A DNA stretch of 34,612 bases from a virus: positions 1-34,612 of the IMG/VR virus record IMGVR_UViG_3300046665_000412; one strand, written 5' to 3'. The translations under genes were made by a program, and so were the position numbers. The notes under the pieces were generated by a model, which was given only the letters and a program-made list of their open reading frames with translations, was not told where the DNA came from and ran no database searches. The number at the start of each line of letters is the position of its first letter. Positions within the stretch are counted from its first letter, which is position 1. This document shows, piece after piece, positions 15,914 to 34,612 of this stretch.

Positions 15914-16705
15914 ATGACCCGACACGAGACGTTTACCTTCGACAACCTCAAAGACTTCATCAACGCGCTCGGCGACGCGCATCCGCAAGCACGCGGGCCA
16001 ATCACGATCTCAGCCAATCTCGCCAACGTGATCAGCGCAACGCTCAACAGGATGTCCGCGAATCTCGCCTTCGACATCCGACAGCTCGGCGAAGCAATCG
16101 CCGCCGGCGACTGCCCGGACTGCCGCGCGGACTTCTTTGAGCGACATTTCGGCAACGCCGCCCGAACCGTCGGCATGATGCACGAAAGCGGTGCGGCCAT
16201 CGCCAAAACCCGCACCGACTTCGACGACATGATCAAGCTGGCGAACAAACTGGCCAAGCCGGCCGGCGGCGCCGGGGCCACAACGCTCGCCGCCGGCGAC
16301 ACCGAAGGCGCCGTGAAGCTGTATGCAGAACACGACACCCTTGCGCGCGACTTGTTCAAGCTCAATCCCGAGAACGATCGTGACGGCCCGGCGCACGTGC
16401 GCATCCACAAGCGCGCGGACGCGATCAACGGCATGCTTTCGAATGCAGGCTTCCAAACACCCACTACCCGCGCGACCATCGATCGCCGGATGCAACAGCG
16501 CCGCGATCACCTTCGAAACGACTACGCGAATGTGAAGGCCAGCGTTGCCGACATTCAAGCCGTGTCATCGTCGCGCGCGCTCAACACCGAGGAAGTGGCA
16601 GACCTTACCCGGCTGCAACAGCGCGAAATCGATATCTATACCGACGTGACGGCCCTTGGCGGCGTCATGATGCAACCGGCGTCGCCGGCGCGCAAAGCGA
16701 GCTAA
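15914..16705 (+). CDS. Larger early protein, mostly helical, unknown
   Basis: The 263-residue product is mostly helix. It contains a CPDC motif at about residue 70 (AAGDCPDCRADFFERHFGN), a glycine/alanine-rich hinge near 125, and long charged helices in the second half (RRMQQRRDHLRNDYANVKAS, LTRLQQREIDIYTDV). ATG 15914 is preferred to 15881 because AGGGAAAG lies upstream. No known domain is recognised. It is the last gene before the hairpin and the xis/int pair. Confidence 0.7.
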   Translation: MTRHETFTFDNLKDFINALGDAHPQARGPITISANLANVISATLNRMSANLAFDIRQLGEAIAAGDCPDCRADFFERHFGNAARTVGMMHESGAAIAKTRTDFDDMIKLANKLAKPAGGAGATTLAAGDTEGAVKLYAEHDTLARDLFKLNPENDRDGPAHVRIHKRADAINGMLSNAGFQTPTTRATIDRRMQQRRDHLRNDYANVKASVADIQAVSSSRALNTEEVADLTRLQQREIDIYTDVTALGGVMMQPASPARKAS

Positions 16706-16808: not shown

Positions 16809-17183
16809 ATGACGATCAAGCTCCACACCCTTGAGGAAACGGCCGCGATTTTCCGCGTGTCAAGGCGAACTTTCTCGGAATGGATCGCCGATAAGCCATT
16901 TTATCGGATGATCGGAAATCGTAAGCTTTTCACCGATCAGGACATTTCCCAGCTTTATGAGTTGATGACACCATGCCCCTCACGCTCAAATTCCGCCCCG
17001 ACCGCAAAAGCTACTACATCCGGGGCACGGTCCGAGGCGTCCACATCCGCGAGAGTTGCGAAACTGATGACTACGAAACGGCCGAAGCCTACCGGGCGAA
17101 ACGCGAATGGGAAGTCTTGCAAGGTACTGTCTTTGGCACAAAGCCGGAAAGCACGTTCCTTGAAGGCGTCGCCATCTATCTAG
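16809..17183 (+). CDS. Excisionase-like HTH protein overlapping the integrase out of frame
   Basis: The 124-residue product starts with a MerR/excisionase-type HTH (LHTLEETAAIFRVSRRTFSEWI, then MIGNRKLFTDQDISQLYELM, residues 1-55). It then switches to a basic, serine-rich tail starting TPCPSRSNSAPTAKAT. The tail is read from the same bases as the integrase N-terminus in another frame (overlap 16973-17183). I recall similar small HTH genes with a CPSSS-type tail over integrase starts in alphaproteobacterial phages, so the overlap may be real, though unverified. A likely role is control of integration direction. Confidence 0.7.
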   Translation: MTIKLHTLEETAAIFRVSRRTFSEWIADKPFYRMIGNRKLFTDQDISQLYELMTPCPSRSNSAPTAKATTSGARSEASTSARVAKLMTTKRPKPTGRNANGKSCKVLSLAQSRKARSLKASPSI

Positions 17184-18085
17184 AAAACGGCGGCGAGCGG
17201 CGGTTTTTGCAGCCGCTCATTGATCACTTCGGCTCGACGCTTATCAGCAAGATCAATCAAGCCGCCATCGACGCAGCCGCCATTAAAATCTACCCCGGCC
17301 TCGCGCCGGCGACACTCAGCCGCCAGCTTTACACACCAGTTGCGGCCGTGATCAACCGCGCAGCCCTTGCAGGAATCTGCTCACCGATCCGCATCACGCG
17401 CCCCAAGGCGCCCAAGGGGCGCGTGCGCTGGATCACGCATGACGAAGCTCGCCGGCTGATCGAGAGCGCGGCGCCGAACCTTCGGCCACTGATCGCCTTC
17501 CTGCTTTTCACCGGCGCCCGCATCGGCGAGGCCCTATGGATCGATTGGCGCTGCATCGACTTGCAGCGCGGACAAGTGCAATTCCTCGACACCAAGAACG
17601 GCACCGATCGCGGCGTGCCGCTGCATCCCGAGGCGATCGCCGAGCTTGCCGCCCTGCCGCATCGCGAGGGCTGTGTATTCCGCAAGGAAGGCCGCGCCAT
17701 TCGCGGCCACAACTCAGGCGAGATCATCGGCTATGAAATCGGCGAGCCTTACGCGCCGCTCAATGAGGACGATGATCGTGACGTGTCGGCCGGCTCGCGC
17801 ATCAAGAAAGGATTCAAGGGCGCATGCACCCGCGCGAAGATCCTCGACTTTAGCCCGCATGACTGCCGGCACACATGGGCAACGTGGCACTATCAAGAGA
17901 ACCGCGATCTCAACATGCTGATGCACCTCGGCGGCTGGTCAACGCTGCAAATGGTGCTGCGCTATGCACACGTGAACGTCGCACACGCGGCGCCGTCGAT
18001 TACAGCGATGCCAAGCATTCGCGGAACATCGATACCTGGCCCCGTTGTGCCACTCAACGAAACCGAGGAGAGGAAAGCCAAATGA
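16973..18085 (+). CDS. int: Phage integrase, tyrosine recombinase
   Basis: The 370-residue enzyme recombines attP with the host attB. The N-terminus is an arm-binding type region (LKFRPDRKSYYIRGTVRGVHI), then a core-binding helical part (about 80-145). In the catalytic domain the expected residues are visible: R183 (TGARIGEAL), K208 (DTKNG), H296 and R299 (SPHDCRHTW), W322 at the His/Trp position (HLGGWS) and Tyr331 (RYAHV). All catalytic positions are intact. The start follows the excisionase-like HTH in a different frame. The probable attachment core, a tRNA-Val 3' end, lies about 2 kb downstream at 20054-20116. The next gene starts by an ATGA overlap. Confidence 0.95.
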   Translation: MPLTLKFRPDRKSYYIRGTVRGVHIRESCETDDYETAEAYRAKREWEVLQGTVFGTKPESTFLEGVAIYLENGGERRFLQPLIDHFGSTLISKINQAAIDAAAIKIYPGLAPATLSRQLYTPVAAVINRAALAGICSPIRITRPKAPKGRVRWITHDEARRLIESAAPNLRPLIAFLLFTGARIGEALWIDWRCIDLQRGQVQFLDTKNGTDRGVPLHPEAIAELAALPHREGCVFRKEGRAIRGHNSGEIIGYEIGEPYAPLNEDDDRDVSAGSRIKKGFKGACTRAKILDFSPHDCRHTWATWHYQENRDLNMLMHLGGWSTLQMVLRYAHVNVAHAAPSITAMPSIRGTSIPGPVVPLNETEERKAK

Positions 18086-22870: not shown

Positions 22871-23371
22871 TCAATTTGCCCGCCGCGAAACTTTTGCACG
22901 GCGCCGCTTTGCAATCGCCGCCTTGACGCGGGCGACCTCGGCCCGCACCTCATCGAGCGTGCGCGCCGGCTTCGGCTTCACCTTGCGCCGTGACGCAAGA
23001 TAGGCCGCCGGCGTGTAGGCGTCGAGCAAATCCGCCGCAACGTCCTTTTCAAACCGATCATCGATCAAGATGCCGAGCGCGCGCGACTCCATGATGATCG
23101 CCGTACATGCGTTGATATGCGCAGCGTGCGGCCGCTTGCTTTTCGGATCGACATCCTGCCCGGCGCGTAACGCGATCGTGTGCCGATCGATGGCATCGAG
23201 ATAGATCGACAGACGCACGGGATTGTTGCGCCAGTTGAATGCGCCGTATTCCGGCGCACTATCCGCGAACACGAGACACGTCTCAATGCGCGCCGTATTG
23301 GGATAAAGACCAACCGGCACCTTCATCAGGCCGAGCGCATCTTTCGGGTTTGCCTTGGCTTTCGGTTTCAC
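22871..23371 (-). CDS. dATP/dGTP diphosphohydrolase-like protein (former DUF5664 type)
   Basis: The 166-residue product resembles a phage domain annotated as the N-terminal part of dATP/dGTP diphosphohydrolases. Visible signatures are NPKDALGLMKVPVGLYPNTA near the start, EYGAFNWR, YLDAIDRHTIALRAGQDVDP and PHAAHINACTAIIMES. The helical, Asp/His-rich layout fits a metal-dependent all-alpha nucleotide hydrolase. The C-terminal 40 residues are basic. It starts at GTG 23371 (AAGGAAG upstream), overlapping the previous stop. In some phages such enzymes clear purine dNTPs when DNA carries modified bases; no purZ-like gene is visible here. Substrate is unproven. Confidence 0.7.
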   Translation of the reverse strand: MKPKAKANPKDALGLMKVPVGLYPNTARIETCLVFADSAPEYGAFNWRNNPVRLSIYLDAIDRHTIALRAGQDVDPKSKRPHAAHINACTAIIMESRALGILIDDRFEKDVAADLLDAYTPAAYLASRRKVKPKPARTLDEVRAEVARVKAAIAKRRRAKVSRRAN

Positions 23372-32941: not shown

Positions 32942-33496
32942 CTAAACGACAGCAAAGACGACAGAGGAAGGCCCGGCATCCGTCATGACCGCGTTGGATG
33001 CCTCGGCGGTTGCCGATGTCACGCCGAGATCGACGCGCCCCGGACGAATGCGGACATAGCGCCCATCCTTGACGCCGACAGCGACATCGCTCGCGCCCTC
33101 GATCAACACGGTGGATGCATTAGTGATCTTGATCGGCTTGCCGCCGGCGTCGAGCGTCGTCTCATCCTTGATGAATTTCAGCACCTTGCCGTCGGCGTCA
33201 TAGAGAGCCGTCCCGCCTTCCGGCAAATCCTTCGGACGCTTGTCCTTATGCTCAAAGCCAAGACCAACAAGTCGATCAGAGCGACCGCCGAGCGCAAGAA
33301 ACAGCCCCTCGGAACCCGCCGGCGGATGCGACGTGAAGCCATGCGATTGTGCGCGATACACATCCTCGGGTTCATCACTGCTCATGCCGAGCAGACGCTT
33401 CATGATCTGTTGCGCGCCGCTATCATCGATCTTCTCAACGCGCGCGCGCCGCAGCGTGCCAACCGTGCTATCGCGGTTTTCGGGAAATCCGTACAT
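32942..33496 (-). CDS. Baseplate spike/assembly protein, Mu gp45-like
   Basis: The 184-residue product matches the Mu gp45 / gpV spike family that pierces the outer membrane at tail contraction. It has an N-terminal RRARVEKIDDSGAQQIMKRLL segment, an OB-like middle (GSEGLFLALGGRSDRLVGLG, KDLPEGGTALYDADGKVLKF) and a beta-helical C-terminus (TLDAGGKPIKITNASTVLIE; quoted in parts). ATG 33496 overlaps the gpP-like stop (TAATG). Family assignment is good. Confidence 0.85.
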   Translation of the reverse strand: MYGFPENRDSTVGTLRRARVEKIDDSGAQQIMKRLLGMSSDEPEDVYRAQSHGFTSHPPAGSEGLFLALGGRSDRLVGLGFEHKDKRPKDLPEGGTALYDADGKVLKFIKDETTLDAGGKPIKITNASTVLIEGASDVAVGVKDGRYVRIRPGRVDLGVTSATAEASNAVMTDAGPSSVVFAVV

Positions 33497-34554
33497 TAGT
33501 CGTCATCCCCGGCATCACTGCCCCAGGCGTCATTAGCCTCACCGCCCTTGTTGCCCTTGCCGCCAAGGGCACGCGGATCGACAAGGGATAGCTCACTGAT
33601 CGAACCTTGATCGCGAACCTGCGTGAACGTCACGCCTTCAACGGCCATGTCCCGATGCACCGCGAGAAAATCGCTTTCGACGAAAATGAGATTGCCCGGC
33701 TCCCAAACCTTGCCGCCATCACAGCGAAACCCCTGCATGGTGACATTGGCCTTGAGACTGTTTCCGGCCTCGCGATCACGGTGCGACGCCGCGCGTTTTT
33801 TCGCGCGCTTCTTGTCGGTGTCTCCGTCGAGCGCGATCACGAGCGGCCGAAACCTGACCTTGCCATCCCGCGCAACAGCCTCGATCCGCAGATTTTCGTC
33901 ACCGCTACCGAAGGGCCGTTGGCCACGAACCGTGATCTCGCTATGCCGCCCCGCATAGTTATGATCGGCCGATCCGGCGAGCATGTTCCCGCCTTCCCTG
34001 ATCGAGCCGCCATGACGCTGTTGACCGCCCTTGGTGATCTTGATCGAGCCATCGGCCTGACCGACAGGGAACACGCCCTGATCGCGACACAGCCGCTCAA
34101 CGACAAGATAAGCCTTCTCGCCCGGCGTGATGCGACACACCGGGACCTTCTCTAGCTGCACATCAGACGTGATGCCGACGCCAAAGAGATCGAGCGCCTG
34201 CCCGATCTCGGCCGGCGTCTTGTCCTTGAAATGGCCTGACGCGTGCTTAGCACTGGAATCGATCATGTCTTGCGACTTGGATCGTCCCGAAATCGAAACA
34301 TCCGCCTTGTCGTGGCCGGAAATGCTCGGCTGATAGCGATCGACATAGCCGCGACAGACGAGATCGCCATTAAAGAAAATCTCGACCTCGGTGCCGGCCT
34401 TGAACGTCCAAGACAGCGCCGTGCCGCCGAGCGGCGCGGCCGCGTCGATCGTGAAGCTTCGCGCACCATCCTGAAACGACGCCTGCACCTCGACCCGCTT
34501 CCAAGCCGTGAAAAGCCCCCCGCCGGCGGAAATCGTGACGACTTCCGGCCCCAT
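33496..34554 (-). CDS. Baseplate hub protein, Mu gpP-like (gp44)
   Basis: The 352-residue product resembles the Mu gpP baseplate hub. It starts MGPEVVTISAGGGLFTAWKR, then has a beta-domain with FKAGTEVEIFFNGDLVCRGYV, followed by DVSISGRSKSQDMIDSSAKH and the VVERLCRDQGVFPVG segment; all fit the family. A C-terminal tail is rich in glycine and aspartate. ATG 34554 is chosen for its AGGGGG ribosome binding site; the frame is open to the window edge, with a GTG at 34575. The parS palindrome at 34568-34583 lies just upstream. Confidence 0.85.
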   Translation of the reverse strand: MGPEVVTISAGGGLFTAWKRVEVQASFQDGARSFTIDAAAPLGGTALSWTFKAGTEVEIFFNGDLVCRGYVDRYQPSISGHDKADVSISGRSKSQDMIDSSAKHASGHFKDKTPAEIGQALDLFGVGITSDVQLEKVPVCRITPGEKAYLVVERLCRDQGVFPVGQADGSIKITKGGQQRHGGSIREGGNMLAGSADHNYAGRHSEITVRGQRPFGSGDENLRIEAVARDGKVRFRPLVIALDGDTDKKRAKKRAASHRDREAGNSLKANVTMQGFRCDGGKVWEPGNLIFVESDFLAVHRDMAVEGVTFTQVRDQGSISELSLVDPRALGGKGNKGGEANDAWGSDAGDDD

Positions 34555-34567
34555 GCTAACCCCCTGA

Positions 34568-34583
34568 TGTTTCACGTGAAACA
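34568..34583. other. parS: Perfect parS-like palindrome TGTTTCACGTGAAACA
   Basis: The 16-bp palindrome equals the canonical bacterial chromosomal parS sequence bound by ParB. It lies at the junction before the gpP-like gene, probably within the end of the upstream tail gene. No parA or parB gene is in the window. An 8-bp inverted repeat (ACAGCGCG 34581-34588 with CGCGCTGT 34602-34609) overlaps its right edge. ParB binding is inferred from sequence identity. Confidence 0.75.
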
Positions 34584-34612
34584 GCGCGTTCTGATATGTG
34601 TCGCGCTGTATG

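Follow-up and report, generated by a model that had tools for sequence, protein, structure and literature searches.

We found that a phage contig carries, beside a baseplate gene, a perfect copy of the canonical 16-bp palindrome parS, the site at which ParB loads before sliding as a CTP clamp and recruiting SMC and ParA. This copy, TGTTTCACGTGAAACA, lies at positions 34568-34583 of the stretch analyzed here (the window), a virus record of 34,612 bases that represents a fragment, or incomplete contig, of a phage genome. On a narrow balance of probability, we predict it to be a host chromosomal ParB loading site that was captured without parA or parB. Sequence comparison makes a genuine ParB site that arose recently the most likely interpretation, with a fair chance that it is neutral. 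We regard as evenly poised a broader reading, in which many unrelated lytic and temperate phages bear a bare host centromere and parasitize host ParB, ParA, and SMC, the window being a recent gain in a temperate alphaproteobacterial phage; the purpose would possibly be genome positioning or packaging, as the sites of marine phages lie near the terminase gene terL. The existence of such orphan parS sites as a general phenomenon appears strongly supported in other phages by their excess over control palindromes, the scarcity of ParB_N and ParA matches, their intergenic position, and their enrichment near terL.

The window site matches parS with no mismatches, as the initial annotation had read it, and is the only match at up to three mismatches when all 34,612 bases are scanned. 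The same annotation had placed a chance match far below one in a thousand windows, an estimate with which our calculations agree: the expected number of exact 16-mers in the window is 2.1e-6 from base composition, 3.6e-6 under a first-order Markov model, and 5.6e-6 under a second-order model. The site lies on the upstream side of a baseplate hub gene similar to gpP of Mu (33496..34554, minus strand; PHROG 177, E 9.4e-81), 13 bp from its ATG (34554-34552, minus strand), and alignments with relatives (38-72% identical in most cases) begin at about this codon. While parS precedes the ATG, an alternative in-frame GTG start (34575-34573, minus strand) falls inside it; parS directly precedes the hub gene, or overlaps it if the internal GTG is the start codon. 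Direct reading of the sequence between parS and the ATG reveals AGGGGG, a likely ribosome-binding site (34560..34565, minus strand). On the other side, RNA folding places a GC-rich hairpin with an 8-bp stem and a 13-nt loop against parS (34581..34609, minus strand), the 60-nt contig end folding at -14.5 kcal/mol (z -2.45). Read along the minus strand, the order is therefore contig end, hairpin (34609-34581, its 3' arm touching parS), parS, AGGGGG, and hub ATG. The hairpin is a possible weak terminator of an upstream gene beyond the contig end; it is absent from the terminator scan listing, and its tail is only UUU. No sigma-70-like promoter was found in the region of parS and upstream of gpP. 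Only 29 bases (34584..34612) separate parS from the contig end, and the contig stops before the end of the upstream gene. In no frame do these last bases contain the RHPSFMP..ALSR-stop motif of the conserved gpN C-terminus.

The surroundings of parS are a phage tail region, as initially annotated, with the baseplate hub gene followed by baseplate wedge and tail-fibre genes. A terminase large subunit gene occupies the opposite contig end (40..2097, minus strand; PHROG 15, E 1.2e-199), and portal, capsid, and tape-measure genes were not found among the window proteins examined. Because the window encodes a tyrosine integrase (16973..18085, plus strand; Pfam Phage_integrase, E 1.4e-22) and an S24-like repressor candidate that falls just under the Pfam cut-off, the phage is probably temperate. 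The view that no phage parAB is present held across the 34.6-kb fragment, which gave no match to ParB_N and none to AAA_31/ParA. The site lies among tail genes rather than in a cluster near parAB or oriC, and no oriC is in view. Elsewhere, the window carries a dATP/dGTP diphosphohydrolase-like gene (22871-23371, minus strand; Pfam PF18909, E 2.9e-18) that is possibly involved in nucleotide modification.

The nearest bacterial relative is an Afipia metagenome-assembled genome (MAG; L124), a single contig of which has three parS copies and a ParB gene inside a span of about 4 kb. The exact 16-mer occurs in 93 of 120 sampled genomes of the family to which this MAG belongs, mostly in one to five copies, so that the window site is identical to the parS found on chromosomes of the likely host family. 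Given these chromosomal copies, and the ParB gene close to them in the Afipia MAG, a ParB recognizing TGTTTCACGTGAAACA is expected in the likely host. Two genomes of this family, G138 and G185 (loci L214-L228 and L314-L343), depart from the usual one to five copies with 53 and 38 exact copies of parS. Many of those in G138 lie at one end of a dispersed repeat of ~110 bp (AAAA-parS-ATGGCTTAGCGCGGACGAACAG...), and when repeat copies from both genomes were picked by the other part of the repeat, 29 of 30 had a perfect parS although the remainder diverges. This dispersed repeat was rejected as the origin of the window site, as the flanks differ.

To place the site among its phage relatives, gpP was used in a scan that yielded 47 virus contigs together with loci in two bacterial genomes, the Afipia MAG and Rhodopseudomonas sp. 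B29 (locus L127 is probably the same sequence as the Rhodopseudomonas contig). Searched anywhere in the record, none of the 47 virus records contains parS at up to two mismatches, nor does any of the approximately 40 gpN-gpP junctions examined, bacterial loci included. By the standard set in the initial annotation, which had suggested looking for the 16-mer in relatives, this absence means that the site is not a conserved feature of this phage type; a conserved use there is rejected on these junctions and records. Since all 47 records lack it, we consider the window site to be a probable recent, lineage-specific gain of putative use, and with no gpP relative bearing it, selection is not demonstrable in the clade of the window. 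With the closest relatives reaching only about 70% identity in gpP, a younger clade may share the site with the window phage. In most relatives, 4-23 bases separate the end of gpN from the start of gpP. As the last bases of the window show no conserved gpN C-terminus, its junction probably holds an insertion. In two relatives, L147 and L152, the gap extends to 246 and 425 nt, respectively, marking the gpN-gpP junction as a place of gene gain.

Beyond these relatives, the exact 16-mer was found in at least 120 IMG/VR virus contigs, compared to one and seven contigs for the control palindromes TGTTTGACGTCAAACA and TGTTTACCGGTAAACA, the former differing slightly from parS in half-site composition. 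ParB_N was matched at E <= 0.001 in only 4 of 120 carriers among the matches listed (by batch, 0 of 40; 2 of 49, one of these below the cut-off; and 2 of 31), and AAA_31 in 1 of 40 tested carriers among the matches listed. Many carrier contigs are short fragments, so an individual carrier could have parB elsewhere in its genome; as a partner for carriers in general, a phage-encoded ParB was rejected given these 4 of 120. The sites avoid genes: 73 of 146 (50%) among the matches listed lie inside open reading frames of at least 80 amino acids, which cover 87% of the sequence. By protein similarity, 45 of the 120 listed carrier contigs fall into one component. In four viral contigs (L017, L044, L053, and L075), groups of two to five exact parS sites that resemble plasmid centromere arrays lie upstream of distant terL genes, whose products are 27-29% identical to the TerL of L027, a member of this component.

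Among named phages, the terminase of L027 is closest to that of Pelagibacter phage HTVC027P (62%). In contigs selected by the motif, parS clusters near terL at distances of tens to thousands of bases, a pattern that we did not accept by itself as a sign of selection, given that the motif had chosen the contigs. A second sample was therefore drawn by terminase alone, including 71 loci with more than 150 bases upstream; it overlaps with the first, both being drawn from one collection, and several of its loci are contigs that the motif had also selected. Within 6 kb upstream of terL, 13 of these 71 terminase-selected phages have parS at up to two mismatches, 10 of them exact, whereas 200 control palindromes, made by shuffling the half-sites, averaged 0.065 at the same loci and never exceeded 2, with no exact match. 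Across 11 site-bearing terL loci (one with only 132 bases upstream and hence outside the 71), 15 of the 16 parS columns are invariant and only one locus departs in the sixteenth, whereas identity in the flanking columns ranges over about 18-65%, mostly around 20-40%. These 11 loci were picked for at most one mismatch and compared ungapped, so this contrast is partly built in, a bias from which the count of 13 in 71 against controls is free.

The cultured phage HTVC027P itself has a one-mismatch site, CGTTTCACGTGAAACA, between terS and terL (16412-16427), and its complete genome gave no match to ParB_N or AAA_31. The trait is patchily distributed: no parS at up to two mismatches was found in HTVC023P or 023Pt_psg01, nor in the scanned parts of the DSL-LC04 and Pag-Yong1 records. 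Taken together, these sequence patterns indicate that parS is kept by selection in other phages, notably in the terS-terL region of HTVC027P relatives. The proposal that phages without parAB carry a host parS thus receives no support from the relatives of the window phage (0 of 47) but is supported in other phages, by the control palindromes and by 13 of 71 terL loci.

How might a bare parS serve a phage? ParB loads at parS and slides as a CTP clamp, recruiting SMC and ParA (PMC8494293); an ectopic parS recruits SMC (PMC7083940), and a single ectopic parS organizes ParB foci (PMC4368675). For these reasons, we take the phage site to be one at which host ParB would load. In this scheme, the CTP clamp of the host protein would load at the phage palindrome and slide along phage DNA, and the sliding ParB would bring ParA and SMC to it. 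Once the phage DNA has been injected or excised, such recruitment would probably aid the positioning, compaction, or segregation of the extrachromosomal genome, and it may affect the adjacent late gene. Binding by ParB, and all that would follow from it, is inferred. In one phage group, the placement of parS in the terS-terL region hints at a role in replication or packaging, whereas the window site is located elsewhere. Several observations speak against a captured loading site: the window has only one copy, which lies among tail genes rather than between terS and terL and just 29 bases from where the contig stops; the gpP relatives all lack the site; and a phage with an integrase can, once integrated, place an origin-distal parS in the chromosome, where such sites can disturb segregation (PMC7083940, PMC4368675).

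The main competitor, which we rate well below the captured loading site but above the remaining alternatives, is neutral coincidence, in which chance created the palindrome at the gpN-gpP junction and ParB, even if it binds there, brings the phage no benefit. The absence of parS from all 47 relative records fits such an origin, as does the fact that large collections yield a few exact matches to any such palindrome (one and seven for our controls), so that a few of the at least 120 would be chance. By the same two controls, however, only about one to seven of these matches would be chance, and it would be an unlikely coincidence for a perfect site to fall just upstream of a gene in a group whose likely hosts use exactly the same 16-mer.

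We consider it improbable that the site serves local gene control, with host ParB or another palindrome-recognizing protein acting upstream of gpP to modulate late tail-gene expression or the internal GTG start. The position of parS, 13 bp upstream of the gpP ATG and beside a likely ribosome-binding site and a hairpin, would suit this role, and Pseudomonas ParB is reported to repress promoters adjoining parS sites (PMC5521831). Nevertheless, the site has no detected sigma-70-like promoter, and the distance of tens to thousands of bases between parS and terL in other phages is ill-suited to an operator. Equally doubtful is a bacterial origin of the contig end, through chimeric assembly or inclusion of host sequence from a parAB region. 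While the 29 bases left beyond parS and the lack of gpN sequence upstream of it are compatible with such an artifact, parS continues into a proper ribosome-binding site and an intact gpP start, none of the chromosomal parS contexts compared resembles the window flanks, and L147 and L152 also have gpN-gpP insertions, of 246 and 425 nt.

To our knowledge, phages that use partitioning bring their own system. Plasmid prophages such as P1 and the extrachromosomal mycobacteriophages resemble the window in having a partition site on phage DNA, but they encode their own partition proteins with a cognate site that is not the host chromosomal sequence, whereas the window has an integrase and no match to ParB_N or ParA. 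Compared to chromosomal ParABS, the window site is the identical 16-bp palindrome, the parS of the likely host family, but its setting is the tail-gene region of a phage, without a parA or parB match and with no oriC in view. The actin-like AlpC of prophage CGP3 in Corynebacterium glutamicum likewise offers phage DNA a cytoskeletal, segregation-like mechanism; AlpC is a phage-encoded filament (PMC4446434), while our reading would have the window phage borrow host ParB. In the open full-text literature, we found no account of a host-type parS on phages that lack parAB, in line with the initial annotation, to which no described use of this kind in this phage type was known; as subscription papers and preprints were mostly outside the search, novelty is provisional.

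The presence of bare parS in many unrelated phages, under what appears to be clear selection, suggests that phages repeatedly borrow the host segregation machinery. If so, such host centromeres on phage DNA would tie infection to the biology of ParB, ParA, and SMC and supply a simple, testable host factor. The idea can be tested in cultured HTVC027P, whose site has one mismatch and whose genome matches neither ParB_N nor ParA. Orphan sites of the HTVC027P type resemble the window site in being host-type parS on phages that give no ParB_N or ParA match, and possibly in an intergenic position; they differ in lying in the terS-terL region under visible selection, whereas in the window parS stands before a baseplate gene and lacks conservation. 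Near terL, a variant palindrome, TGTTCCACGTGGAACA, was also observed, 67-91 bases upstream of the gene and beside a canonical parS in L237, and downstream of the terL start in L253.
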